Below, one piece after another: positions 3,801 through 64,000 of a DNA stretch of 64,000 nt. Under the pieces are notes generated by a model. It was not told the DNA's origin, did no database searches, and worked only from the letters and a program-made list of their open reading frames with translations. How positions within the stretch are numbered: position 1 is the first letter of the stretch; each line of letters begins with the position of its first letter. A program made the translations under genes and the position numbers. Source of the DNA: Pelecanus crispus. Its lineage: Eukaryota > Chordata > Aves > Pelecaniformes > Pelecanidae. The stretch is taken from the NCBI RefSeq assembly GCF_030463565.1, contig NC_134662.1, forward strand, positions 4,751,001-4,815,000, in the 5' to 3' direction.

Positions 3801-4475
3801 ATTTTCAGGCATTAGCCTGGAACGGCAAATAATGCCGGAGCAGAGCCGGGTGATGACGAGGACCCGGACACCGGCTGTGCCCCACGGCCCAGGGGACGGG
3901 GCGGCCAGGGCATCCGTCCCTCCGGCAGCCGGCGACGCGCCGGGCAGAGGGGCTGCTGACGTGGGGTGCGGAGCACGCAGGGACCCCCGCGCCGAGGGCC
4001 ACGTCGCGGCCGCATCGGGGGGCCCCCGTTAGCGCTGCGGCGGGGCCAGCGCGCAGCCACGGCAGGGCCGGCGCCGAGCTGCACGGGGGCCACTGCGGAG
4101 CCAAGCTGGCGAGCCGCACCAGGGGGTGGCCACCCTTCGAGGTGCATTCGTGCCAGGGCTCTGCCACCCCGGGGGGCCCCACCGAGCCCCCCCCCCCCGC
4201 CCTCACCGGTCCCCCGGCCCCTACCTGCAGGTGTAGCTGAGGTTCCTGCGGATGCTGCGCTTGAAGAAGCTTTTGCAGCCCTCGCAGGTGAAGACCCCGT
4301 AGTGTTTCCCGCTGGACTTGTCCCCGCACACCACGCAGTCCACCGGCGCCCCGGCCCGTTCCTCCTCGCCGTGCTCCGCGTCGCTGCCGCCGCCCGCCGG
4401 GGACGCCGCCTCCTCCCCGCCGCCGCCGCCGCCGCCGCCGTTGGGCTCGCCCCAGCCGCCGGCCACCATGGCCAT
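823..4475 (-). CDS. NR2F6: NR2F6 (EAR-2/COUP-TF-gamma) nuclear receptor, 5' two coding exons, partial
   Basis: This is an orphan nuclear receptor, a DNA-binding transcriptional repressor. Coding exon 1 is 4475-4225 and exon 2 is 917-823; the ligand-binding-domain exons lie beyond the left edge. The start ATG at 4475 gives [11 protein letters not shown], which matches the remembered human N terminus. A Gly/Ala/Glu-rich linker follows. The C4 zinc-finger domain comes next: the first finger reads [20 protein letters not shown] with P-box CEGCKS, and the second ends [18 protein letters not shown]. The intron splits an Arg codon (AG|G) between the two fingers. The donors are CTGCAG|GTAGGG at 4225 and GGAAG|GTAACG at 823, and the acceptor is CCCACAG at 920-918. 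The frame stays open upstream to another ATG at 4571, so a 32-residue longer N terminus is possible. NR2F1 and NR2F2 share the DBD, but the N terminus and the USHBP1 neighbour fit NR2F6. Confidence 0.95.
918..4224. other. NR2F6 intron 1
   Basis: This 3.3-kb intron separates the two zinc-finger exons. It is mostly GC-rich without recognisable genes. An AT-rich island at about 2400-2535 contains several TAATTA-type cores and stands out against the surroundings. A short GGGAAACTGAGGCA motif at 2947-2960 recurs elsewhere in the window (see findings). Confidence 0.6.
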
Positions 4476-5300
4476 GGCTCCGCGGCCCCGGGGGCTCAGC
4501 GCCGGCCCCGCCGCCGCATGGAGCGGCGCCCGGTACGCGGCGCCCGGCGCCTCCCGGAACGAGTTGAGCAAGTTTTTGGGGGGTGGCGGCCGGTTTGGGA
4601 TTTTTAAGGGTTTTTTTTTTTTTTTTTTTTTTTCCTGTTGTTGCTTCCCCTCTCTATCCCAGGGCTCGCTCTCTCCTCCCTCCTCCCCCCCTCCCTCCCC
4701 CCCCCCCCCCCGTTAACGGGGGGGCCCCGCGGAAACTTTGCGGCGGCGGGAGCGGGGCGCAGCCCGGCGCATCCCCCCCCGGGGCGCGGCGGCTCCCGGC
4801 GCGGCGGCGGCCCCGGGGCTCGGCCGCATGCGGGGGCCGCCGCTGCCCGCCCCCGGTGGCTGCTCCGCTCCGCGGCACCGGCAGGGAAGGAGGAGGAGGA
4901 GGAGGAGGAGGAGAAGGAGGAGGAGGAGGCGGCGCTGCCCCGGCCCGCCCTCGCCCCTACGGGCCCCGCCGCCGCCGCCGCTGCATGCAGCCCGGTCCGG
5001 GTCCGGCGGGACCCGCTGCCGCCGAGCCCCGGGGCTCTCCCCCGCCTCCCGCGAAAGAGCAAAGTTCAGCCGCTGCCGCGGTGGCCGCCCTGGATGCTCC
5101 TCCCCGTCCTCCTCCCCTTCCGCTCGCCGCCCGCCGGGTCCTGCCCCGGCCCCGGCCCCGGCCCCGCCGCCCCCGCCGAGCCGGGGAGGGGAGGGGGGAG
5201 CCGGGGGGGCGGCCCCGCTGCACCGGGCAGGGCGGGGTTGGGCACGGCAGGGCCCGGGCGGCTCCGTGGGTCGGTGGTACCGGTTGTAGCGGAGGCGGGC
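4476..5300 (-). promoter_or_regulatory. NR2F6 CpG-island promoter and 5' leader
   Basis: This is extremely GC- and CpG-rich sequence directly upstream of the NR2F6 start codon. It carries a long T tract (about 4611-4633, an A tract on the gene strand), C-runs near 4700-4712 and a GGA trinucleotide tract near 4889-4930. No TATA box is seen. The transcription start was not located; the call rests on position and composition. Confidence 0.6.
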
Positions 5301-20160: not shown

Positions 20161-22584
20161 ATGGAGCGTGGCTGCGTGATGGACACGTCGGAACCGGGCA
20201 GCGCCGCCGAGGAGGAGGAGGAGAAGGTGACGGAGCCGCGGCCCAGGACCCGCTCCAACCCCGAGGGGGCCGAGGATCGGGCCCTGAGCGCCCAGGCCAG
20301 TGTGGGCAACCGCAGCGAGGGGGAGGGCGAGGCGGCCAGCGCCGACGACAGCCCGCAGGGCACGGCTGCGCCCGACGGCACCGCCTGGCCCGGCCCCGCG
20401 CCCCCCACCGAGGTCCAGGTGAAGACGCCGCGGGTGAACTGCCCCGAGAAGGTGGTGAGTGTCTGCGGGGAGCGTGGCGCGGCCCCGATGCCGGGGTGAG
20501 GGGCTGCGGGGGGCTCAGCCGTGGCTCTCTTCCCTGCAGATCATCTGCCTGGACCTGGCAGAGGAGATGGCTCTGCCCAAACTGGAGTCCTTCAATGGGT
20601 GAGTGTTGGGGGCTGCTCCCAGGACCCCCGGGGACCCCAGCTTTCCCAGGGGACAGGCGCAGTTGGGGCCCGGGGTGATGCTGGTCCCCGCTGAGCTCCG
20701 GCCCCCGCGGCAGGTCCAAGACCAACGCGCTGAACATCTCGCAGAAGATGATCGAGATGTTCGTGAGGACGAAGCACAAGATCGACAAGTGCCACGAGTT
20801 CGCGCTGGTGGTGGTGAACAACGACGCCACGTGGGTGAGCGGGGCCGCGGGGACGGGGATGGGGCTGGCGACGGGTTCGGCTCCGCGCCCCCCTCACCCC
20901 GGCTCCTCTCAGCTCTCAGGGTTCACCTCGGACCCCCGCGAGGTCTGCAGCTGCCTCTACGACCTGGAGACCGTCGTCTGCAAATCATTCAGTATCCCAC
21001 CGCCTGCGGGGCTGGGACAGGGGGCCAGGACCCCACGGGGTCCCTTGGGTGCAAATGGGGTCCCTTGGGTGCAAACAAGGTCCCTCTGGCATAAGTGGGG
21101 ACCCTCCAAGCCCGTTGCCTGCAGATGGCAGCAGATCCGCGGCCTCGCTGGCATCCCCGGCACAGCCGAGCCGGCTGCGGCACAGATCGGTGTTGGCGTT
21201 TGAGGCCGGAGGGTCGAACCGAGCCCCTGAATCCCCCAAGGCAGGTTTTAACGCCGGACCCTCCAGACCCACCAAACACCCGTTTTTATCGGTGTTTTCT
21301 CCCCACCCTGGTCCATCCCCCGTGCCCGGTGCGATCGCTTCCCTCTGCGGGAGCTTCCCGGGTGCCCCGGTGCCAGCGTGGCCGCCGGGCCGGGGTGCGG
21401 GAGGTCCCCGGGGCGGGCAGGGGTCCGTGTGCCAGGATCAGTCCTTACCTGGGGCTGCAGATCTGGAAGGGCTCTTCAACCTGATGTGAGTACGGCCGGG
21501 GGGGCGGCGGGGGCTCTGCGGGGGGTCGGGGCGCCCACCCTGGCTACGAATTTTCTGCTTTGCTATAAAACCGCCGCGAGCTGTTGACCCCGACGGCTCC
21601 TGGGGTGGGTGCTGCTTTCCCAGTGCCAGCCCAGAGCTGTCAGCAGACGGTCATTAAGTTTTAACGAGGTGGGGACGGTCCCTGAGCCGCCTCTGTCCTG
21701 GCGCAGCCAGCAGAAGATCGAGCTGCCGGTGACGGAGAACGTGCAGACCATCCCGCCGCCATACGTGGTCCGGACCATCCTGGTGTTCGGCCGCCCAGGC
21801 TGCCAGCCCCAGTTCTCCATGTCGGAGCACATGAAGGTAGGTCCCCTCCCTGTCCCCCACCCTGGGTGAGCTCGGTGGCTCCGGGTCCATCCTGGCATGT
21901 GGAAGAGCTTCCCGGTGCCGTTCCCAGCTTCTCAGAATCATTGAATCGTTTAGGTTGGAAAAGACCTTTAAGAGCATCCAGTCCAACCATTAACCCAACA
22001 CTGCCAAGCCCACCACTAAACCAATTAAGGGCAGAGTCATAATTTCACGTTTCCTGGCTTGGTGGCTGGATTATTTTTTAACGAAAGTAAAAACTAGGAG
22101 TCATTAAGGTTGGAAAGGATCTCTAAGATCATCAGCCCAACCATCACCCCACCACCCCCATGCCCACTAAACCATGCCCACTAAACCTTGCAGAAGATGC
22201 TGCAGTGCCCCTACTTCTTCTTTGATGTGGTTTACATCCACAACGGGGTGGAGGAGAAGGACGACGAGACGAGCTGGAAGGTAAACGCGGGACGGGGCGT
22301 CCCCCCCGCCACGGCTTGCGGGGGGGGGCTGTGTGTGCCCCCCACCCCTCCCGCGCTGCCCGTCCCCGCGCGTGTCCCCGCAGGAGATGTACGCCTTCTT
22401 CAGCAGCCTGGACACCAAAGGCACCAACTACAAGTACGAGGTGTCGCTGACGGGGCCGGCCGTGGAGCTGCACAACTGCATGGCCAAGCTGCTGGCGCAC
22501 CCGCTGCAGCGGCCCTTCCAGACCCACGCGGCGTACAGTCTGCTGGAGGAGGACGAGCCCCCCGAGATCGAAGCCACCGTCTGA
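20161..22584 (+). CDS. BABAM1: BABAM1 (MERIT40/NBA1), BRCA1-A and BRISC complex scaffold
   Basis: BABAM1 holds together the BRCA1-A complex (DNA damage, K63-deubiquitination) and the cytosolic BRISC complex. Exons: 20161-20454, 20540-20598, 20714-20834, 20913-20991, 21461-21485, 21707-21836, 22194-22280 and 22384-22584. The sum is 332 codons (331 aa against 329 remembered for human). After an acidic N terminus the protein reads EPRPRTRSNPEGAEDRALSA, then a VWA-like domain from VNCPEKVIICLDLAEEM through SQKMIEMFVRTKHKIDK, ELPVTENVQTIPPPYVVRTI and CPYFFFDVVYIHNG. It ends YSLLEEDEPPEIEATV, the tail that in human binds BRE. All junctions are GT-AG and in phase. Exon 5 is only 25 nt. Intron 6 contains a CR1 fragment that reaches the exon 7 acceptor. 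No canonical AATAAA is evident downstream before the array at 22905. Confidence 0.97.
21931..22190 (-). mobile_element. CR1 LINE 3'-end fragment in BABAM1 intron 6
   Basis: The stretch starts AGAATCATTGAATCGTTTAG and continues GGTTGGAAAAGACCTTTAAG, the reverse complement of an avian CR1 3' end. It contains the same two terminal modules separated by an AT-rich spacer as the copies at 41968 and 42650. CR1-like CCCATGCCCACTAAACC is duplicated immediately before the exon 7 acceptor at 22193. Confidence 0.88.
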
Positions 22585-22904: not shown

Positions 22905-23840
22905 GGAGGCACTGGTGCGGGGTACTGGGAGCACTGGGGCAGGGAGCTGGGCGGCACTGGGCAATGCCAGTGCAGGGCGCTGGGAGGTGCTGGGAGTGCT
23001 GGTGCAGGGCACTGGGAGGTGCTGGGACTACTGGGAGCTGGTGCAGGGCACTGGGAGGTGCTGGGAGTGCTGGTGCAGGGCACTGGGAGGTGCTGGGACC
23101 ACTGGGAGCTGATGCAGGGCACTGGGAGGTGCTGGGAGTGCTGGTGCAGGGAGCTGGGCACCATTAGGTAATGCCAGTGCAGGGCACTGGGAGCACTGGG
23201 GCAGGTTACTGGAAGGTGCTGGGTGGAGCTGGTGCGGGTTACTGGGAGGTGCTGGGAACACTGGGAGCTGGTGCAGGTTACTGGGAGGTGCTGGGTGGAG
23301 CTGGTGCAGGTTACTGGGAGGTGCTGGGAACACTGGGAGCTGGTGCAGGTTACTGGGAGGTGCTGGGTGGAGCTGGTGCAGGTTACTGGGAGGTGCTGGG
23401 AACACTGGGAGCTGGTGCAGGTTACTGGGAGGTACTGGGAGCACTGGTGCGGGTTACTGGGAAGTGCTGGGAACACTGGTGCAGGTTACTGGGAGGTACT
23501 GGGAGCACTGGTGCGGGTTACTGGGAAGTGCTGGGAACACTGGGAGCACTGGTGCAGGTTACTGGGAGGTGCTGGGAACACTGGGAGCACTGGTGCGGGT
23601 TACTGGGAAGTGCTGGGAACACTGGGAGCACTGGTGCAGGTTACTGGGAGGTACTGGGAGCACTGGTGCGGGTTACTGGGAAGTGCTGGGAACACTGGGA
23701 GCACTGGTGCAGGTTACTGGGAGGTACTGGGAGCACTGGTGCAGGTTACTGGGAGGTGCTGGGAACACTGGGAGCACTGGTGCGGGTTACTGGGAAGTGC
23801 TGGGAACACTGGGAGCACTGGTGCAGGTTACTGGGAGGGG
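22905..23840. repeat. About 40-bp minisatellite between BABAM1 and ANKLE1
   Basis: The array is built from CTGGGAGGTGCTGGGAACAC, TGGGAGCACTGGTGCAGG and GTTACTGGGA variants. The left third (22905-23200) is a shorter related form. The last units change into GGGAGGGGCGGGGC and lead straight into the ANKLE1 promoter. Confidence 0.92.
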
Positions 23841-23960
23841 CGGGGCGCTGGGAGGGGCGGGGCGGGGCTGCCGTCGGCCGCCTCCTATTGGCCGTCTCGC
23901 CAGCCAATGAGCAGCGGGCCCGGCTGCCCGCGGGGGGTTCGAACCGGCGGGGCCCGGGAG
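23841..23960 (+). promoter_or_regulatory. ANKLE1 promoter: GC boxes and two CCAAT boxes
   Basis: Repeated GGGGCGGGGC boxes (about 23836-23868) are followed by an inverted CCAAT (ATTGG at 23887-23891) and a direct CCAAT at 23904-23908. The region is CpG-rich with no TATA box. Position and orientation fit ANKLE1; the start site was not determined. Confidence 0.6.
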
Positions 23961-24561: not shown

Positions 24562-27500
24562 CGTGCGGACCCCGACCTGCTCCTCCCGGAGGGGTCACCC
24601 CCACCCATCGGGCCGCCGGCAGAGAGCGGGTGGGCAGTGGGTGCTGCCTGGGGCTGCTGCTGCGCCGCAGCGGGGACCCCAACGCCCGGTAACGGCCGGG
24701 GCCACGCAGTGACCCCGCTGCGATGCCGGAGCACCTGGCTGCAGGGTTGGTGGCACTTGCGTGACCCCGAGGGGGCTGCTGTGACCCTGACCTGCTGACC
24801 ATGACCCTGACCGTGATCCTGACCTGCTGACCGTGACCCTGACCTGCTGGCCAAGCTGGGGGTGTGCAGCGGGCTCGGGGTGAAGCCCTGCTCCTGCTCC
24901 AGGTCTGCCGGGGAGCTGATGCCGCTGCACGTCGCCGCGTCCCGGGGGTGCTGCAGGTGCCTCGAGCTCCTGCTGAAGAAAGCGGGGGACGCGGAGCTCC
25001 AAGACCAGGTTAGCGGGGACAGCTTTGGGGACAGCTTTGGGGATGGGGACAGCACCTTGGAGGTGCTGCCAGTGCTGGCACTCTCCTCACCGGTGGGGCG
25101 GGTGAGCAGCGGGTGCCCACCTGGCCCTGGCAGGGTTGTGTCACCCCATGGTGGCCCCGGCAGCGGTGACAGCAGTGTCCCCTCCCCACAGGATGGGAAA
25201 CGAGCCATTGACCTGGCGCTGGGCAACCGTGCATGCGTGCAGATCCTGCGGGACTCGCAGAGCGCCCGGGGCTGGCAGCCTGCAGAGGGTGAGGTCCCCA
25301 GGGTGCCCCCTCGGCCAGGGTGGGTGTTGGGGGGGGGGGCTGATCCGGCCCCCCCAGTTTGGGCTGGATGCCGATTCCCGTCTCTGCCCGCAGAGCCAGC
25401 GGGATGCAGGCGTTCCCTCTCCTTCCTGACCGAGGACGGCACCCATGGCAGCGGCTCCCCCGGGCTCCCTGAGAATGGCTCTGCGGCCGGGCCCCTCAGC
25501 AGCACCCGCAGGTCCTTGCTGGAGGAGCCGGAGCTGGGGGGTGGCTGCAGTTCAGGGGAGCCCCCATTTTGGCTGGGCTGTCCCCCCGAGCCCCTGTCCC
25601 TCGCCATCCCCTCCCTCGCTCCATGGCCCCACCTGGACCCTGGGGGCCCAGCTCTCCCCCCGCAGCCCCTCGCCTCCAGCACGCTGCTCTCAGCCGGGGA
25701 TGAGCTCGGGGAGGGACCCCGGAGCCAGACCATGGCAGGAAGGATGGGGGGTCCCCCCTGGGGTCTCCCCGAGCCCAGCGCTGGGGACAGCCCTGGCCCC
25801 TCTCCCCAGTGGGAGTTTGGTCCCGGTGGGTCCCTGGGCTCCCCCCAGCCCCACTGTTGCAGCAGGGTCCCAGGGGGACGTGGGGTGTCCCCCAGAGCTC
25901 CCCTGAGCAGCTGCCCCGTGGCGTGCCAGAACCCCAGGGACGGTGACATCCTGGGTGCCGTGGCTCAGCACCATGACGGTGTCCCCCGGGGACCAGCGGT
26001 GGGCTGGGCAGGGCTGGGCATCGCTGCCCCGGCTGCCCCCGAATTGGGGACGGTGGTGCTCGAGGCGAGGGCCCCGGGCTGCGACCCCAGCAGCCTTGGG
26101 GACAGCAGCGGTGCCAGCGAGTGCTTCTTCAGTGCCGTGGAGACCCTGGAGCCCAGCAAGGCTGGGGCAGCCGGGGCGCTGGAGCTGGGTGAAGCCCCCT
26201 CCCCAACTGGAGCTGCCACCCGGGAGCTGCCCCCCACCAGCCCCGCAAATGCAGAACAGGTGCAGGGTGAGGATTTTTGGGGGGGCTCAAGGGCAGCCCC
26301 TCACTGCAAAGACGGCTCGGAGGTGGGCGGTGTAGGGGAGCTGCTTGCACGGCTCCAGGGGTGCAGCCTCCGGGGCTCCCCTCCCCGCAGCCCGGCCAGC
26401 CTCGCCGCTGGGGATGCCACCCCCGGGGGGCCGGAGCCCCCCAGGCACCGCCACGTCACCCCCAGGACCAAAAGCCGCCTCCAGGCCTTCATGGCGCGGC
26501 TCAGCACCTCCTCTTCCTCCTCCCTCTTCGATGAGACGCTGGAGATGCCCCGGAGGCCCCCCAGGCTCAGAGCACCCCGGGGTGTCCCCAGGGACCCTGC
26601 TGCCACCTTGGGGCCCTGCGTCACCCCGGGGGGCGAGGAGGTGTCCAGTGGGGACGGAGAGGCGACAGGCTCTTTGGACGACACCGCGATCCTCCCGGGA
26701 GCCCCCAGCCAGCCCAGCTCCTCCCTGGGGACCAGCAGCTCCCCCGGCTCCAGCCTCACAGTCCTGCTGCTCCCCGGGGACCACGGGCACCCCCAGGACT
26801 CCCCGTGGGATGCTCGGGGCTCCCCCCATGCCGCCAGCAGTGCCAAGCCCAGGGTGCTGGAGGGTGGCTCTGGGTGGCAGCACCCCTTGCCCTTGGGGCC
26901 ACACCAGCCCCCACAGCCCCACGGGAGCTTCAGCCACCTCCTGGCCCCACAGCTGCCAGGCAGCGCCGCGGTGGAGCCGGGGAGCCCGGTTGTGCCGCTC
27001 TCGTCCACCGGCTGCAGCACCCACTGCTCCCAGGAGCACCTTGAGGATGAGGAGCAGGGACAAGCACCCACCAAGCAGCGCATTCCCGGTACAGAGGATG
27101 CCGTGGTCCGGGATGGGCAAACGTGCGTGGTGCTGCCGCAGCCCCTCTCGGACGAAGCTCTGCGCCGGCGGCTGCGGGCGCTGGGGGATGACCCGGGGCC
27201 CGTCACGGAGCTCACCAGGCGGCTGTACCTGCGGCGGCTGGAGGAGCTGGCAAGGGGACCCCGGGGGAGAACGGCGGGTGAGTGCCGGGGAGCCCACCCT
27301 ACCCAGTCGGTTGGTCCCCGCGGTGCTGGCATGGGGCTGACGGTGCTCCCCGATGCCGGCATGGCCGTCCCAGGGCACAGCCCTGAGCTGGCGGCCGCGC
27401 TGCGGACTGGCTGCGTCCCTGACTGCACCCAGGACGAGCTGGCGCTGGCCCGGCAGTTTGACCGCCCCGACCGGAGCCGGCGCTGGCGGGAAGGGCTGGT

Positions 27501-29565
27501 CAAGTCCAGCTTCAACTACCTCCTCCTCGACCCCAGGTAGGGCCATGCCATTGCCCCGCGCGTCCCCCATGCCAGGGGGTTCCGAGCGGGGACCCCTGGG
27601 AGGCATCAAACCCCAAAGCTGGTGGTTTGCACCCCCAGGACCACCCAGAACCTGCCGCTCCGCTACCACTGCCTGAGCTCGGCCGAGTGCTTCAGGACCT
27701 TCGTCAAAGCCATCTTCTACGTGGGCAAGGGGACGCGCGCCCGGCCGTATCAGCACCTCACCGAGGCGCTGAGCCAGCACCGCGCCGGGACGCGGAAGGT
27801 GGGATGGGCTGGGGGGGTTGAGGCCACAGTCATGGGCACAGGGGGCTGCACCAGGGGCTCGAGGCCATGGTGATGGGCATGGGGGGCTGTACTGGAGGCT
27901 CAAGGCCACAGTCATGGGCACAGGGGGCTGCAATGGGGGGCTGGGGGCTGTGGTGATGGGCATGGGGGGCTGCACCGGGGGGCTTGAGGCTGTGGTGATG
28001 GGCACGGGGGGCTGCACCGGGGGGCTTGAGGCTGTGGTGATGGGCACGGGGGGCTGCATCGGGGGGCTTGAGGCTGTGGTGATGGGCACGGGGGGCTGCA
28101 TCGGGGGGCTTGAGGCTGTGGTGATGGGCTTGGGGGGCTGCATCGGGGGGCTCGAGGCTCTGGTGATGGGCTCGGGGGGCTCGAGGATGTGGTGATGGGC
28201 ACAGGGGGCTGCATCAGGGGGCTCGAGGCTGTGGTGATGGGCACAGGGGGCTGCACCGGAGGGCTGGGGGCTGTGGTGATGGGCACGGGGGGCTGCACCG
28301 GGGGGCTCGAGGCCATGGTGATGGGCACGGGGGGCTGCACCGGGGGGCTCGAGGCTGTGGTGATGGGCACCAGGGGCTGCACTGGGGTGCTTGAGGCCAT
28401 GGTGATGGGCATGGGGAGCTGCACGGGGGGGCTCAAGGCCATGGTGATGGGCATGGGCGGCTGTACCGGGGGCTCAAGGCCATGGTGATGGGCATGGGGG
28501 GCTGTACCAGGGGCTCAAGGCCATGGTGATGGGCACGGGGGGCTGCACCGGGGGGCTCAAGGCCGTGGTGACGGTGCCCATTGTCCTTGCAGGGCTGCCC
28601 CAAGGTGCAGCGCATCCTGGAGATCTGGGCGAGCGGGCAGGGCGTCATCTCCGTGCACTGCTTCCAGAGCACCGTGCCAGCGGAGGCCTACACGCGGGAG
28701 GGCTGCCTCGTGGAGGCTCTGGGTGAGCGGGGAGGGCGGGGGGAGATGGCGCTGCCCCTGCCCCTGCCCCTGCCCCTGCTGCGGCTCCCGGCATCGGTTC
28801 TGCCGCCACTCTGACCCCCTGCAGCCCTCTCTCCCATCCCGTGCAGGAGGCAGGGGGACACGGGGGGGATCCAGCCCACCCTGGGGCACACGGGGACTTT
28901 GGGGTCCCTGGTTGCCAGCGCAGGGTCTGGGCACACTCCCCCAAACCTCCATCTCCTGCGGGAAAAGCTGCCTGGGAGTGGGTGCTGGTGGGGGACGCAG
29001 GGCTGCCTGCATCTCTGCGGGGCTGTGGGTGCTGATGGGGAGCAGGGGGCTGGGGCTGTGGGTGCTGACCCCATCCCCGCAGGGCTGTGGGTGCTGATGG
29101 GGAGCAGGGGGCTGGGGCTGTGGGTGCTGACCCCATCCCCGCAGGGCTGTGGGTGCTGATGGGGAGCACAGGACCAGGGCTGTGGGTGCTGACCCCATCC
29201 CCGCGGGGCTGTGGGTGCTGATGGGGAGCACAGGACCAGGGCTGTGGGTGCTGACCCCATCCCCGCGGGGCTGTGGGTGCTGATGGGGAGCACAGGACCA
29301 GGGCTGTGGGTGCTGACCCCATCCCCGCGGGGCTGTGGGTGCTGATGGGGAGCACAGGACCAGGGCTGTGGGTGCTGACCCCGTCCCCGCAGGCCTGCAG
29401 ACCATCACCAACCAGAGGAAGGGGAACTGCTACGGCGTGGTGGCCAGCTGGCCGGCGGAGCGGCACCGGCGCCTGGGCGTTCACATGCTGCACAGGGCCA
29501 TGCGCATCTTCCTGGCCGAGGGCGAGCGGCAGCTCCGGCCGGCGGACATCCACGGTGGGTGCTGA
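24562..29565 (+). CDS. ANKLE1: ANKLE1 (LEM3), ankyrin-LEM-GIY-YIG endonuclease, 5' end incomplete
   Basis: ANKLE1 is a structure-selective DNA endonuclease of haematopoietic cells. Supported exons: 24562-24688, 24903-25008, 25192-25288, 25394-27277, 27374-27536, 27639-27798, 28593-28722 and 29393-29565, all with GT-AG junctions. Ankyrin repeats span the first three (ADPDLLLPEG; LGLLLRRSGDPNAR; LMPLHVAASRGC; KRAIDLALGNRACVQILRD). The 1.88-kb exon is a Ser/Pro-rich disordered linker much longer than in human, ending in a LEM motif (LRALGDDPGPVTELTRRLYL). The C terminus is the GIY-YIG nuclease: SSFNYLLLDPR, AIFYVGKGTRARPY (catalytic Tyr/Arg side) and EAYTREGCLVEALG (metal-binding Glu). The first listed exon changes reading frame by one base at a G-run (24588-24594), and exon 1 is missing. 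Introns 3-5 of this list are multiples of three and stop-free. The last two introns carry minisatellites. Polyadenylation signal at 29716. Confidence 0.93.
27815..28562. repeat. 42-bp minisatellite filling an ANKLE1 intron
   Basis: About seventeen copies of a 42-bp unit, GCTGTGGTGATGGGCACGGG then GGGCTGCACCGGGGGGCTTGAG, occupy almost the whole intron 27799-28592. The array starts just after the donor and stops about 30 bases before the acceptor at 28592. Confidence 0.93.
29019..29392. repeat. 62-bp minisatellite containing the ANKLE1 last-exon acceptor
   Basis: Six units of exactly 62 bases contain GGGCTGTGGGTGCTGATGGG, AGCACAGGACCAGGGCTGTG and GTGCTGACCCCATCCCCGCA. The real acceptor AG (29391-29392) falls on the register of the array. 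Equivalent positions carry AG at 29081-29082 and 29143-29144, and GG at 29205, 29267 and 29329. Confidence 0.92.
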
Positions 29566-29715
29566 ACACCCTGGGGTGCTGGGGGGCCCCCCCATCTGCA
29601 CCTCCCCTCTGCCCTGTCCGAGGAGGTGGCTGTGCTCTGGGCGCGGGTTTTATGTCATGAACACTGGCGAGAATTTTTCTATTTTTCTATTTTTCTATTT
29701 CCCTAAAGGGTGATA

Positions 29716-29721
29716 AATAAA
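29716..29721 (+). terminator. ANKLE1 polyadenylation signal
   Basis: AATAAA lies 150 bases after the ANKLE1 stop codon, in TGATAAATAAATCGC, followed by a T-rich stretch. Confidence 0.75.
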
Positions 29722-32049: not shown

Positions 32050-34276
32050 TTATTTCTTCTCCCCTTGCCCGTCCCCAGCTGGCGTCTCGGGCTCCCACAG
32101 GACGAACTCGTGGAGCAGCGTGTTCACCGTCTCGGGACACTCCATCATCACCATGTGGCTGCCCTCGTCGATCACCTTCAGGAAGGCGATCAGCAGGATC
32201 TGGAGGGAAACGGTGGCAGCGGCAGGCGTCAGCACCGGGACAAGCCCCCCGCCCGCATCGCTGCGTGCTGGCAGGCAGACCCCAGCCCTCGTCCACCGCC
32301 CCCAGCCCCTCTCGGTCCCTTACCTCGGCCATTCGCTGGTCCTCCTCCACCGGGACAAATTTGTCATGCATGCCATGGACCAGAAGCACAGGCACGGCCA
32401 GCTCCGCGTGGTAAACCTCGTCACCCTCCGGCCAGTACTGCCCGCTCATCATGGCGCGCAGCACGAAGGAGGAGACGTTGAAGGCGTTGCCTTCCTTCAG
32501 CAGCTGCTTCTCTTTGGCACCCTGGCGAGCGAAGCCAGCCCTGCGGGACGGAGCCGGCACGGGCAGAGGGTTAGCCCAGCGCGGTGCTTCGGCAGCGGCG
32601 GGACGGGAGCGTGGGGGATGCTGCCGGCAGGACGCGGTGTCCCTGCTCGTGGTGGCTGGAAGCCAGCTTGGCTGGGGACAGCCCTCCCCAGCGCCGCGGT
32701 GCCGGGACGGCTACTCACTTGAGGAAGCTCCAGGCCAGGCACGGGGACAGGCAGTGCAGCACGCAGGTGGGCATGTTGAAGATGGAGCAGAGGCTGGGCT
32801 CCAGCGCCGTCGGGCCCCCTCCATTGATCATGATCACCTTATGGACCAGGTCTGGGTACTCGTGGGCGAGGAAGGTGCAGAAGGACACCCTGTGGGGAGA
32901 CACAGACGTGGGGGCCGTGCTCCAACCCCGTGGAACCAGAGGATGCTACATCCCAAGGCAGATCCCAAGGATCCATGGCCGGAGCCCAGGCTATACCCTT
33001 TCATTTGACCCTTGCCCCCCCCTTTCTTGGGGCAGGGTAACCCCAGTCAAACCCCACAGCTGGTGCCCTGCAGAGCCTGGGCAGAGGGGCTGAGCTCAGG
33101 GTTTCATTCCTGCGCAGACCAAAGCAGGGTGCTGGGACCCGCTTGGGTGCCCACCAGCCTTGTCCTGATGTAATCCTGCCCAGCTCGGAGCCCGTCTCCA
33201 GCTCCCTCTCCTCCCAGCCCTGCTCTCTGCACTGCTTAGTCTCCATCTAATTGACTTTCTTGGGTTTACTCTATTTATAGGCTGTGCTCTGCCAACTTCC
33301 CTGCTGGAGGACAGGCTCTGGGATTAGCCGGACCCAGGGACACACACCAAGAGGATGTAGGAGATCAGAACTGAGGGATAAACCCAGAACGGGAAACCCC
33401 ACACCCCTCCTCTGCTTCTCAGCCCGTGAAGTGCAGGATTTGTTGGGCATTTGCTGCCAAGGAGAGGATGGGGCAGGGATGAATCCATCCCTTCCCTCCT
33501 GGGACCCCCCCGGTCCCTTACCCGTACGAGTGACCTATCAAGATATTCCTCTTCTTCGCGTAGCGCTTGAAGACAGCCCTCATGTCCTCTGCCAGCGCGT
33601 AGAAGGTGTACGCAGCGGCAATTTGGGGAGCCGAGCTGCAGCCGTGGCCGGCCAGGTCGGGAGCCACCACTTCGTAGCCCAGCTTGGTAAAGAAGTCCAG
33701 CTGCTCCTTCCAGATGTCCAGCGAGCCGCCCACGCCGTGGATGAAGAAGAGGACCACGTCGCTGTGCGTCCCTTTGCAGCTCGTGATCTGCTTCTTGCAG
33801 TCGATGTTGATGACTTTCTTGGGTTTACGCTTCCGACGCTTGCCGGGGGCAGCGGCTGCTTCCCGCGTGCCGCACCCCGGCGTGCCGGCGGGACCCTGGG
33901 CGGGAGTTTGGCTGGCCAGGTCGGAGAGCTCCAGCTCCACGGTGCTGTTGGGTTCCCCTGAGCTGTTCTGGCAGTGCAGGATCTCAGAGCGGACGGCATC
34001 CCCCAGGTTCTCGATCACCAGCTGCCCGTTGCGGTAGACGGTGATCTTGCGCTTGCAGTGCACCGTGCCACGCTCCGGCCCCCCGGGCTGGGTCTCCTCG
34101 GGTGCTTCTGGCGCCAGGCGGCTGGGCGTGCTGTGCCTGACCCGCAGAATCCTTCCCGGCTTCACCTCCATGAAGCTGTAGCCGTTGCTGGACTCAACGC
34201 TGTCCAGCGGGCCCACGGCGTTCGTCGTCTTGCCCATCAGGCAGCACAGGAGCCCATCGGTGATGCTGTTCAGCAT
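32050..34276 (-). CDS. ABHD8: ABHD8, alpha/beta-hydrolase domain protein
   Basis: ABHD8 is a predicted serine hydrolase of the alpha/beta-hydrolase fold; its substrate is unknown. Exons in transcript order: 34276-33522, 32889-32719, 32540-32324 and 32199-32050. The sum is 431 codons (430 aa; human remembered as 439). The start [15 protein letters not shown] follows an acceptor (CATTGCAG) 9 bases upstream of the ATG, so at least one 5' non-coding exon exists. The N-terminal half holds [20 protein letters not shown] and a basic KRRKRKPKK patch. The hydrolase domain begins [20 protein letters not shown]. The nucleophile elbow is GHSYG, with its last Gly codon split by intron 1. Later motifs are [32 protein letters not shown] (candidate acid) and [14 protein letters not shown] (catalytic His). 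All junctions are GT-AG and in phase. The gene is convergent with ANKLE1. Confidence 0.97.
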
Positions 34277-37200
34277 TATGCTCCCTGCAATGGAGGCAAG
34301 ATGGGGGGCAGGAGAAGGGGGGTTAGTCACCAGCTCCAGCACCGTGGGGACCTGCCGGGGGTCCTGGCTGTGGCACAGGGGACCAGGGACAGCCCCGTCC
34401 CCTCCACCATGCCCTGTTTTGCTGCCAGCCCCTGGGGAAAGCTGCGGCGGCATGAGCGAGGGCAGAACGTGCCTCCAGGGATGCATCGGGGGTGAACGTG
34501 GTGCTCCCCAAATGCACAGCCCTCCTCAGCCACCTGCCAACAGGCTTCTGTTTCGGATCAAAGATGGACCCAGCGCTCCCCGTCCAGCTTTGTCTGGGCC
34601 ACGTCCCTGTCACCGAGCCTGTCCGACATACACAGGCCCAGCAGATATGCGCTCAAGCGGCTGCAAACACATGCAGTCCCTGGCACGCAGCTGCGTGCCT
34701 CCAAGAAGGGATCTGCCCTGGCCGAGGGAAGGGAAACGCAACGAAAAGCCTGTTTGAAATGAAAATGCTATTTCTGGCACCAAATATGGAGCTAAGGAAA
34801 GATTCCGCTGTGAAAATGCATTATTTATACCAATTAAATATATATATGTATCTCTAGTCTAAACCACCAATACAAATAGCAATAGATGGAAATTAGAGGC
34901 ACTGGAGATGAAGGTTTTAATTAAAGTCACTCCGCAAACCAAGGCTGAAAATAATATGGCAAGAGGAGGGGGGAGGGACATGACAGTGACCTGGCACCCA
35001 TTTGGGGGGTGGGAAACCCCCTCCCCACATCCCCACCCGGCACCACACAGGCTGGGGGGACACGGCACTGCCCTTGCTGTCCCCAAGGCTCATTTCTTGA
35101 CATTTGCTCTTCCAGATGCACTTGGGTGGCTTTGGGAGAGGGCTGCGGATGCCAGGACCACCAAGCCCGGCTGAAAGCGAAGCCAGACCGGAGCAAAGGA
35201 GTTGGCAAGGTAGGAAAGGTGGTGGCACCGGGGGCACCGGGGCCAGGACCAGAGCCTGACGCCGTTCCGGCGGTGCGGAGGGGGCTGGGGAGGTCCCTGC
35301 CTCCCCTGGCTGGCAGCCTGATGCGCGTTTATTATTGATGAAGCTAAACACGGTGAATTATTGATGCCGATGGGCAAAGAGAGCCAGAGCGGGCACTGCG
35401 CAGAGCAGCTGTCCCTGCAGGAGGGGGCACCGGCTGCCCCTCGAGCAGTGGCTGCGGGTACCGACCATGACCCCTGCGGAAGGGAGGAGATGGATATTCC
35501 CGGGGGGGGGAATTTAACGTCTAAATCCCAGTGATGCTGTCAGGAGCGGCCCCCTTAACTCCCTGAACAACTCCTTCAAGCGCACCGGGCAGGATTACGA
35601 GCGCTTTGCTGGCAGACAGTGCAAAAAAACCCAAGGGATGGAGGCAGGCTGGGTGCGCAGGCCTCCCTCTCTGCAGCTTTTATTGTTCCCTGCATTTGGG
35701 GAAGCCAATGCTGCGCCCTCCTTCAGAGACCCCTACAGACCCCAACATGCCCAGCCTGGCCCCTGCATGCTCCTGGGGAGCGGACAGGCTCTGCCAAGAG
35801 CCGCCGGCCGGCGGGATGCCCACGCGCTCCGGCCCCAGCCCAACACACGGTTTGTGGGTTTCCCTGGGAAAAACCAGCCTGTTTGCTCCAGGCAAGCGAT
35901 CCGGGTAACAGTTCCTTTGGCAAAGCCGGAGCGGCTTATCCGGGGAGCGCTGCCAGCTCTCGGGACAGCAGCCAGCGTTTGATTCTCGCCTGGCTCTGCT
36001 GGGGACAGCGGTCCAACTCCCACGCAAACGCTGTGCAAGGCTCTGGGTGCTGAACTGCAGGGACTGGAGATGCAGCAAAGCCGGTCCTGGGTGCTCCTTC
36101 GCCTTGCCGCTGGCCGGGGAGCTCCCGGGGGCTCCCCGCAGTGCAGGGCATGGCAGTCCCAGCTCTTCGTAGTTTGGTAGCTGGGCTCGCACCGGCAATC
36201 TCTCTTCTGGACACGAGCACATCCGTGCGGGATGCGGCTCAGGGCTCATGTTGGTGATCTCTCTTCTGGACACGAGCACGTCTGTGCAGGATGCGGCTCA
36301 AGTCCTACAACGCTGAGAGCTTTCCTGCAGCCCCCTGCTCCCCACGGGCTGGCCGAGGGCCGTGCCAAACAGCTGTGTCACCCACCGGGCTCCCTTCGCT
36401 GCTCCAGGGATGGCCCCATCCAAGCTGATGAGCAAGAGCAGGAGGTCTCAGAGCCCTGGGAAGGACCAGACCTTGCTGGCAAGGGGCCAGTCTGCTCTGC
36501 TGAGCCACACTTCCAGCGGGGTGATGAGCCCGAGGAGCTGGGTACCAGACTGGCTGCAGCCCTGGCTGGAAGGTGCCGGGCTGCGTCTGCGCTGGGACAC
36601 CCACGCCGCTGCTCTTGCCGTGCTTTCGAGCACCAGCTCGGTGCCAGGCTTGGGCTGCTCTCGATCCTCGAGCAGCCCTGAGCTGGTAATGCTGAGCAGC
36701 TGGGGCAGGCAGAAAACCCGAGGGGAGAGGGGAAACCAGGCAGATCCTGAGTCTCGCAGTCCCCACAAGCACGACCGCAAGCTCTGCCCACGGCTGGCAG
36801 GCCGCATCCTGCACCTGCACCGGGTACGGTTCCCCCAGGCTCTGCTTGTGCGACCTGGACGTGATTCTGCCTCTGGTTTCCATAAAGCCTGGCTTTGCGC
36901 TGCGCCTCCATTTCACAAGGCACTAATGATCTCTGGTATGGATTATAAACAGGACTTCTGGCCAAGCCGCCTCGACATTGATTAACTTCTCAGGATTAAC
37001 GCAATCAGTCAGTCCATCCTGTTCATTTCCAGAATTGAGTTGCTGGAAGGCTCTGGCAGTCAGGAGTTCTGCAGGCAGATCCCGGAGCCCAGGCTTGGGC
37101 CACGGGGCCGCCCTCCAGCCTCATAGGCTCTGGGTGCGAGCCCGGATCCCGCTGCGAGAGAGGGGCTTTTCGGCAGGGCAGAGCCCGGCTCCCCGCACTG

Positions 37201-38149: not shown

Positions 38150-38783
38150 AGCCATGTAGGGCTGACACAGGGCCCGTGGGGCTGACATGCAGCCATGTAG
38201 GGCTGACACGGGGCCCATGGGGCTGACATGCAGCCTGTGGGGCTGACATAGAGCCCGTGGGGCTGACACGGGGTCCATGGGGCTGACATGCAGCCTGTGG
38301 GGCTGACACAGGGCCCATGGGGCTGACAGAGGGTCCGTGGGGCTAACACAGAGCCCGTGGGGCTGACACAGAGCCCATGGGGCTGACATAGAGCCCGTGG
38401 GGCTGACACAGAGCCCGTGGGGCTGACATGCAGCCCATGGGGCTGACACAGGGCCCATGGGGCTGACAGAGGGTCCGTGGGGCTAACACAGAGCCCGTGG
38501 GGCTGACACAGAGCCCATGGGGCTGACATGCGGCCAGTGGGGCGGACACAGGGCCCATGGGACTGACAGAGGGTCTGTGGGGCTGACACAGAGCCCGTGG
38601 GGCTGACATGCAGCCCGTGGGGCTAACACAGAGCCCGTGGGGCTGACACAGAACTCGTGGGGCTGACATGGGGCCCGTGGGGCTGACATGCAGCCTGTGG
38701 GGCTGACATAGAGCCCGTGGGGCTGACACGGGGCCCGTGGGGCTGACATAGAGCCCATGGGGCTGACACGGGGCCCATGGGGT
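38150..38783. repeat. 20-bp minisatellite
   Basis: About 31 copies of a 20-bp unit reading GGGGCTGACACAGAGCCCGT with variants CATGCAGCCCAT, ACAGAGGGTCCGT and ACGGGGCCCAT. Variants recur in a longer pattern. It is intergenic between ABHD8 and MRPL34, with no spacer diversity of the CRISPR kind. Confidence 0.94.
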
Positions 38784-62072: not shown

Positions 62073-64000
62073 TTAGAGTTTATAGCCCCCACTCTCCTCC
62101 TCTGCCCGGCTCTCCAGCTCCTCTCGGCCCCCCTCCTCCGGCACCCCGTTGAGATGGGACTTGCTGGGGACCGGCCGCTCGCCCGTGTCCGCCGAAGGGC
62201 CGGGCCGGGGCTGGGGGGAGGCGGTGGCTGCGGCACCGTTGCCCCCGGCCCCTTCCGACTTGCCAAAGTTGAAGAGCTTGCCGGGATTGAATGGCTTGGT
62301 GGGTGACTGGACCTTCTCGGTCCCTGCGTCCCGCTTAGTCTCGGGGGATTTCAGGAACTTGAAGCTGAGGAAGCCGGGGAGTTTGTTCTCGCTGCTGGTA
62401 GGGGACTGGGGGGACCTGGCGGTGGCCATACTGCTGGCCCCGGCCCCCCCGGAGAGGAACTTGCCCTGCAAAGGGATGATCTGCTTCAGCTTCATCACGT
62501 TGTTGGTGGCCAGGAGGGAGCTGGGTCGCTTGGGCTTGTCGGAGCCGTGCGAGGAACCCCCGGAGCCCTTCCCTTTGCTCTGGCTCTTCTCGTGGGCCGG
62601 GTCCTGCCCGGCGGCCTCGGGCTTGGCCTCGTCGCGGCTGGACTCGCGTTCCTTGCGGGCCTGGTACTCGGCGTGCCGCTGCCGCTCCTCCTCCTCCCGC
62701 TTGCGCCGCTGCTGCTGCTGGAAGTGGTGCTGTGCCTGCCGCTCGTGCTTCTGTCGACGGGGAGCGCGTCAGCCCCGGGGACACCCCGGGGAGCCCACCA
62801 ACCCCAGGGATGGGGGGGTCCCAGCTCTGTCCTCGACCCCAAGGAGGGTCCCATCCCGGCATCGCCTACCTTGAAGGCCTCGCGGCGCTGGTACTCCAGC
62901 TTGGCCATCTCCTCGGCCACCCAGGCGGGGATGTCGGGGATGGCCACCTGGATGATGTACTTCAGGAACAGGGCGAAGTGCTGCAGGGGGGAACACGGAT
63001 CTGGCTGAGCATCCCCACCCCGGCCCTGTGGGCACCACCGTCCCCTCCCAAAATGCACCCCGCAAGGGCTGGGGGGCCAGAGAGACCCTACAATAACAGC
63101 CTGGGGGATTCTGGGCCCCGCTGTGTTGCCTGGCAGCACCCACTGCCTGCAGGGAGCTGCCGGGGGTTGCAGCAGGGGGTTTAGGGCTGGGACCCCATCC
63201 CTGGAGGGGAAGGTCTGCGGCAGCCCTTGGCTGTCGGAGCCAAGACACCACCTTGTCACGCACCGGGAGACCCTACAATAACAGAAGGCCGTGGAGCGGG
63301 CGGCGGGCGCAAGCACCGTACCTCCAGCACCACCACGGAGATGATGGCTCCCTCGGGGCTGAGCCAGGGGAAGAGGCGCTGGAGCTGCCCACACTGGGCG
63401 ATCAGGTAGCAGTTGACCACGATGGCCAAGATGCCCATGGCCTCCATCACCTTCTGCAAGAGCGATGGTGCCGGGGATGAGCCCCCGGCCAACCGGGACC
63501 CCCGCCAGCCCCACCCCGGCCCCCAGCCTACCTGCCACTGCCCGATGCTCTCGACCCGCTGGCCGAAGGGACGCTGGAGCCCCGTGCACAGCTTGAAGGC
63601 ATCGCTCCGGATCTCGATGATGTTGTTCACCAGGGCGCACATGGCGGCCAGGGGGAAGGCGGAGGAGAAGAGCACCACGTAGCCGAACTGGATGAACATC
63701 TCCTGGTAGTCCTGGAAGGTGTCCTGGGGAGGAAGAGGAAGAGGAAGAGCATGTTGCAATGGGGCTGGGAGGGGGTACACCGCACCCCACCAGCCCCGTG
63801 CCCCCCTTGGGGCCGCTCACCTCGTACTTCTTCATGCAGCTCTCCACCTCCGCCTGCGTCAGCTGCGTGGAGTAGTCCTCCTCCGGCGGGTCAATCCAAG
63901 ATGCCCGGTTGCGCCTCCGCCCTTCCTCCTCACCCTCCTCCTCCTCCCGGCTCTCGGCCGCCCGCCTCCTCCGGCCAGCCCGCGGGACCACTGCCGGCTC
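62073..64000 (-). CDS. ANO8: ANO8 (TMEM16H), C-terminal five exons, partial
   Basis: ANO8 is an anoctamin reported to tether ER and plasma membrane. Exons in transcript order: at least 64000-63821, 63723-63532, 63453-63322, 62980-62870 and 62750-62073; the rest lies beyond the right edge. The first visible exon is acidic/basic low complexity, then SWIDPPEEDYSTQLTQAEVE. Membrane segments follow: FGYVVLFSSAFPLAAMCALV, MEAMGILAIVVNCYLIAQC and ISVVVLEHFALFLKYIIQV, as in the last anoctamin helices. FKLCTGLQRPFGQRVESIGQ and IPDIPAWVAEEMAKLEYQRR are near-identical to human. The cytoplasmic tail is a basic/acidic coiled-coil (QQQQRRKREEEERQRHAEYQ) and VMKLKQIIPLQGKFL. It ends EEESGGYKL at the stop 62073-62075. 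The tail seems shorter than in human, which continues with a long Pro-rich segment. Confidence 0.96.

Follow-up and report, generated by a model that had tools for sequence, protein, structure and literature searches.

A probable mirage-like minisatellite carrying tandem copies of the last splice acceptor of ANKLE1

Introduction

Minisatellite-like duplications across intron/exon boundaries, called mirages, have been described in amphioxus (PMC3087553). The AG is kept in many, not all, of the units, and regular splicing is said to be undisturbed (PMC3087553, PMC3902484). The duplicated splice sites of the lancelet Adh3, TnC, and globin genes were likewise reported not to disturb the mRNA (PMC3087553, PMC3902484). 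For PGBD5, which carries imperfect 60- and 108-bp repeats, undisturbed mRNA was the authors' inference, the predicted exon 5 having no mRNA backing (PMC3902484). The reported unit lengths are 10–72 bp in Adh3, 60 and 108 bp in PGBD5, and 150–160 bp in BflGb6 (PMC3087553, PMC3902484), and the number of units in BflGb6 is given as 6 or 3, depending on the haplotype (PMC3087553).

Here, we describe an array of acceptor copies at the end of the last intron of ANKLE1, located in a stretch of 64,000 bases (hereafter, the window), and compare it with these systems.

Results

On the plus strand of the window, a LEM domain was detected at 7.9e-11, above the curated Pfam cut-off. The LEM-3_GIY-YIG profile (Pfam, length 151) was split across three successive exons, which covered profile positions 8–50, 53–97, and 97–150, and each of the three matches (E-values from 1.4e-14 to 1.5e-15) passed its curated cut-off. 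The combination of a LEM domain and a LEM-3-type GIY-YIG domain identifies the gene, on predicted domain content, as ANKLE1. Ankyrin matches were weak, stayed below the cut-offs (Ank_5, 18.3 bits against 27; Ank, 16.9 against 21.1), and were obtained in one exon-bearing frame. The penultimate coding exon (28593–28722, profile positions 53–97) is followed by a donor GT at 28723 and by the last intron of 670 bases (28723–29392), which bears the array at its 3' end. The coding part of the last exon (29393–29565) contains profile positions 97–150 of 151 and the stop codon at 29563–29565, and a likely poly(A) signal, AATAAA, lies at 29716–29721. The first-pass annotation had placed the array before the last ANKLE1 exon; the profile running to position 150 of 151, the stop codon at 29563, and the AATAAA at 29716 agreed with this placement. 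A search for relatives of the last exon in the PDB gave a ribosomal protein as the sole match (E 0.34).

Neighbouring genes were searched for with 20 ORFs, chosen from 506, tested against Pfam, of which 3 matched, together with one PDB comparison. A C-terminal BABAM1 exon (22285–22581, plus strand) was located upstream of ANKLE1, and an ABHD8-like alpha/beta hydrolase fold (33521–34525) and an anoctamin (63259–63816) were located downstream, both on the minus strand. A nuclear-receptor zinc finger was assigned to 4224–4712, also on the minus strand. The order of the neighbours around ANKLE1 fits the human order. No Rfam family matched in the window at gathering scores. The GC content of the window was 62%, and 35 merged minisatellite arrays occupied 8622 bases (13.5% of the window); as an impression only, such GC-rich, minisatellite-rich sequence suggests a bird microchromosome.

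TRF analysis yielded one array at 29020–29397 with a period of 62, 6.1 copies, 97% matches, and 0% indels. Units phased on the acceptor fill 29021–29392 on the plus strand, so that the six units of exactly 62 bases proposed in the first-pass annotation were recovered. Unit 1 (U1, 29021–29082) ends in a decoy acceptor AG at 29081–29082 and has a branch-point-like CTGAC with the A at 29068. Unit 2 (U2, 29083–29144) is identical to U1, with a decoy AG at 29143–29144 and a branch-like A at 29130. The mutually identical units 3–5 (29145–29330; U3, 29145–29206; U4, 29207–29268; U5, 29269–29330) carry GCGG in the acceptor slot and retain the C-rich tract and CTGAC intact. Unit 6 (U6, 29331–29392) ends in the authentic acceptor AG at 29391–29392 and has its branch-like A at 29378. 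Hence, the units form three blocks, namely U1 and U2, U3 to U5, and U6, with exact identity within blocks; of the 62 positions in U6, 2 differ from U3–U5 and 6 from U1/U2. The positions of the two decoy AGs, as well as their distances of 310 and 248 bases to the true AG, were verified. The middle units had been described as having GCGG and no AG. The GCGG was confirmed as the slot sequence of U3–U5, but each of these units contains three other AGs, which are among the 19 AGs across the six units.

The 62-base unit is itself a dimer, consisting of 33-base and 29-base halves with a common GGCTGTGGGTGCTGA core. At the 5' edge of the array, a degenerate part-unit was detected at about 28978–29005 on the plus strand. 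Its local score of 31 against U3 and U6 was reached in 0 of 500 shuffles (first-order resamplings) in each case, and its score of 29 against U1 was reached in 30 of 500. Three stretches further upstream (28723–28960) were searched for older copies of the unit, and none beat the shuffles, 159 to 467 of 500 scoring as high. At the other edge, the array stops at most five bases past the start of the exon: the TRF end is 29397, and 4 of those five exon bases match the unit.

U1 and U2 (29019–29124) contain canonical four-run G-quadruplex motifs, and U3–U6 do not. This difference was set aside as ordinary for the region, since such motifs start at 181 positions on the plus strand of the window.

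The copied element is a 20-base acceptor module, TGCTGACCCCRTCCCCGCAG, which comprises a match to the yTnAy branch-point consensus (CTGAC), a C-rich tract, and the AG. Every one of the six units has it with no more than one mismatch. When up to three mismatches were allowed, 7 matches were found in the window, i.e., the six array slots and one minus-strand site at 25035, against a shuffle mean of 0.05 (n = 100); a search of viral contigs with the module gave 0 matches. The slot dinucleotide is AG in half of the units and GG in the other half. The branch-like A lies 14 nt before the module end in U1, U2, and U6, and likewise, by identity, in the other units. Between the last upstream AG (29362–29363) and the authentic acceptor there is no further A; therefore, the branch point in use would be either this close one or a weak one at a greater distance. 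AGs less than about 12–15 nt from the branch point can be bypassed, according to one report (PMC1431707). The 14-nt distance at the authentic acceptor would accordingly be marginal, and an exonic CAG becomes a further candidate. This CAG (29398–29400) is 8 bases into the last exon and 22 nt from the likely branch point, and its matrix score (see below) is −0.69; if used, it would shift the frame and lead to a stop at 29658.

Splice-site scoring of each unit, which the first-pass annotation had proposed as a check, was performed with an approximate 3' splice-site weight matrix. The decoys of U1 and U2 scored 5.14 each, and the authentic acceptor scored 4.98; the acceptor of the preceding ANKLE1 exon reached 5.61. 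The 16 AGs of the array outside the slots scored from −6.3 to −10.9, and use of the middle units through other AGs (ACAG, −6.4; CCAG, −7.3) was considered unlikely. Among the intron AGs outside the array, those at 28845 and 28823 scored 3.34 and 2.06, respectively. The decoys had been called perfect. They are real, share the context of the true site, and score like it; nevertheless, the term was overstated, as the window has 8507 AGs on its two strands and 113 of them equal or exceed the score of the true site, which is only moderately strong by the matrix. This background amounts to 0.88 per kb per strand, or about 0.6 such AGs per 670-base stretch, and the number of decoys is thus not extraordinary. 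At least two AGs on one strand at the score of the true site were found in 1 of the 35 arrays, which was the ANKLE1 array itself. With the threshold relaxed to 3.0, 3 of the 35 had at least two acceptor-like AGs on one strand, indicating that acceptor-like sites are repeated in other arrays as well. On these predicted scores, the decoys are unusual in their identity with the true module, not in their number.

Other minisatellites near the gene were also recorded. The intron that precedes the last ANKLE1 intron is largely occupied by an array of 42-bp units (27811–28571), whose end is 21 bases short of the acceptor at 28592; at 27820–28571, neither strand has an AG of 3.0 or more. A complex minisatellite at 22970–23864 separates the last BABAM1 exon from those of ANKLE1; it has TRF periods of 32, 41, 73, and 114 bp and two minus-strand AGs, at 23831 and 23848, scoring at least 3.0. 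The 20-bp array at 38159–38782 (GGGCTGACACAGAGCCCGTG, about 31 copies) has three moderate acceptor-like AGs (at least 3.0) on the minus strand.

We compared the decoys and the true site for features that could decide between them. They are alike in the branch point, in the tract (one base apart), and in the matrix score, and at the level of predicted signals nothing local separates the true site from the decoys. Each unit contains an inverted repeat, GATGGGG / CCCCATC, with CCCCGTC in the true unit. Folding was predicted in three contexts; the mean unpaired values over the tract and AG were 0.001, 0.003, and 0.011 at the true site and between 0.003 and 0.143 at the decoys of U1 and U2. The decoys were the more open in all three contexts, clearly so in two, where their tracts were 0.074–0.143 unpaired against 0.003 and 0.011 for the true site. 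A hairpin selector favouring the true acceptor was rejected on this basis. Downstream of the authentic site lie the coding terminal exon and the poly(A) signal at 29716; downstream of the decoys lies G-rich repeat. Where splice sites are duplicated, proximity and exon sequence reportedly decide (Reed and Maniatis, 1986). Proximity would favour U1, and since both factors are said to matter, some use of the decoys would be possible. If the copies are unused, exon context would outweigh near-identical local signals.

Use of either decoy was claimed to break the frame and to disrupt the C terminus of the nuclease, and both predictions held on translation. The junction 28722|29083 adds 310 bases and 28722|29145 adds 248; the predicted products acquire 24 new residues, stop at 29157 or 29219, and lose the last 56 residues. 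In human ANKLE1, of which a construct ending at residue 615 was studied, the metal is probably bound by E551 and N565, and the activity of E551A and N565D was undetectable (PMC10287932). By a hand count from the C terminus, assuming equal C-terminal length, an Asn six residues into the last exon would correspond to human N565, and by the same count the Glu that precedes it by 14 residues, encoded in the penultimate exon, would correspond to E551. The decoy product would keep this Glu and lose the Asn, and is therefore predicted to be inactive. Its stop codon would lie in the terminal exon, so that the exon-junction decay rule would not apply. Ankle1-deficient mice are reported to be viable, with no haematopoietic phenotype detected (PMC4807109), and loss of ANKLE1 might thus be tolerated.

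Discussion

We propose that the array arose when the terminal 62 bases of the intron, a 33 + 29 dimer in their own right, were amplified by slippage or unequal exchange. Since the array end coincides with the intron/exon junction, whole acceptor modules, i.e., the branch point, C-rich tract, and AG, would have been multiplied. An array whose unit derives from the acceptor would be expected to hold at least two AGs that match the true site in strength, and of the 35 arrays, this one alone does so on one strand. In the simplest scenario, at least three unit types would have arisen, the first being doubled and the middle one tripled, and the three GCGG slots may all descend from a single substitution that preceded this tripling. 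The authentic acceptor at 29392, which alone opens onto the real terminal exon, would be used in most transcripts. The decoys would be silent or would give low-level isoforms with 24 extra residues before the end and without the metal-binding Asn.

We consider that the array is probably a mirage-like minisatellite, in which an acceptor has been duplicated on the intron side by tandem-repeat turnover and the authentic site predominates. The exact 62-bp periodicity, the unit blocks, and the degenerate edge unit show the turnover pattern of BflGb6, and the minisatellite-rich region and the reportedly undisturbed splicing in amphioxus also favour this reading. The equal scores, the common branch point, the more open decoys, and the 14-nt branch distance count against it. 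The array could instead act as a copy-number-dependent splice modulator, in line with the suggestion in the first-pass annotation that copy number could alter splicing between individuals, with decoys competing so that more AG-bearing units lead to less active nuclease, which we regard as unlikely. In its favour, the decoys match the true site by score and by branch point, are nearer the donor, and show greater openness in two of the three folding contexts. Identical adjoining units also suggest recent turnover. The predicted products lack the residue matching N565, and human N565D is reported to have undetectable activity (PMC10287932); the viable Ankle1-deficient mice suggest that loss may be tolerated (PMC4807109). 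However, amphioxus mirages are reported without splicing disturbance (PMC3087553, PMC3902484), and the donor-nearest decoy AGs were kept and duplicated (U1 = U2), which speaks against a heavy cost of carrying them. A natural cis-competition series, in which the allelic number of AG-bearing units would set the fraction of ANKLE1 transcripts losing the metal-binding Asn, appears quite unlikely; if true, it would make nuclease dose a copy-number trait in a vertebrate-type gene.

The lack of a slot AG in 3 of the 5 non-terminal units, with the branch point and C-rich tract kept, would also fit selection that stripped the AG from the middle units and thereby protected splicing. We judge this highly improbable, because U3–U5 are identical and one change followed by amplification is enough. 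Taking the variable columns as three independent events, an assumption of ours, gives a probability of 0.094 for one or more of them falling on the slot dinucleotide, and the two donor-nearest decoys were retained; with one inferred event and this chance, selection against the middle AGs is not supported. It is very unlikely that the number or arrangement of units is partly an assembly artefact, with identical units collapsed or expanded. The exact identity of U3–U5 and of U1–U2 would be explained by it. In lancelets, the BflGb6 array was apparently misassembled in the amphioxus draft genome (PMC3087553) and the PGBD5 repeat number differs between two sequence versions (PMC3902484). On the other hand, the three blocks have private bases, and the array is short (372 bases).

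A minisatellite in the human interferon-induced 6-16 gene is reported to give multiple splice donors (Turri, 1995). That minisatellite reportedly has a splice consensus in each unit, like the ANKLE1 array, and differs in that donors are copied there and acceptors here. CeRep25B of C. elegans is, similarly, an intronic minisatellite tied to splicing choices; unlike the ANKLE1 array, it is linked through candidate regulatory motifs, and the available text describes no acceptor copies (PMC4039745). Intron gain by tandem duplication also increases the number of splice signals and can give rise to new patterns of splicing, whereas the ANKLE1 copies lie within an existing intron and no new intron is evident (PMC2891723, PMC4974935). 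No vertebrate acceptor-duplicating minisatellite was among the matches listed in a search that mostly covered openly available papers, which does not prove absence.

The amphioxus mirages in Adh3, BflGb6, BflGb9, TnC, and PGBD5 share with the ANKLE1 array tandem copies of a splice-site region and a splice dinucleotide in many but not all units (3 of 6 here). BflGb6 further resembles it in the blocks of like units and in boundary units outside homogenisation. The ANKLE1 unit is essentially intron side, whereas mirages span the exon-intron boundary, and BflGb6 units include exon sequence. Since the array copies no exon sequence beyond five bases, and thus does not span the boundary, we treat it as a mirage-like variant and do not file it as a mirage. 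The ANKLE1 modules differ mainly in donor distance and in the following sequence, and the array would be a clean natural test of spliceosome choice among near-identical acceptor modules. The two mirage reports that we found in the literature both concern lancelets; the ANKLE1 array, unlike these known mirages, is not from a lancelet, and a case in a vertebrate-type nuclease gene would modestly widen the phenomenon.
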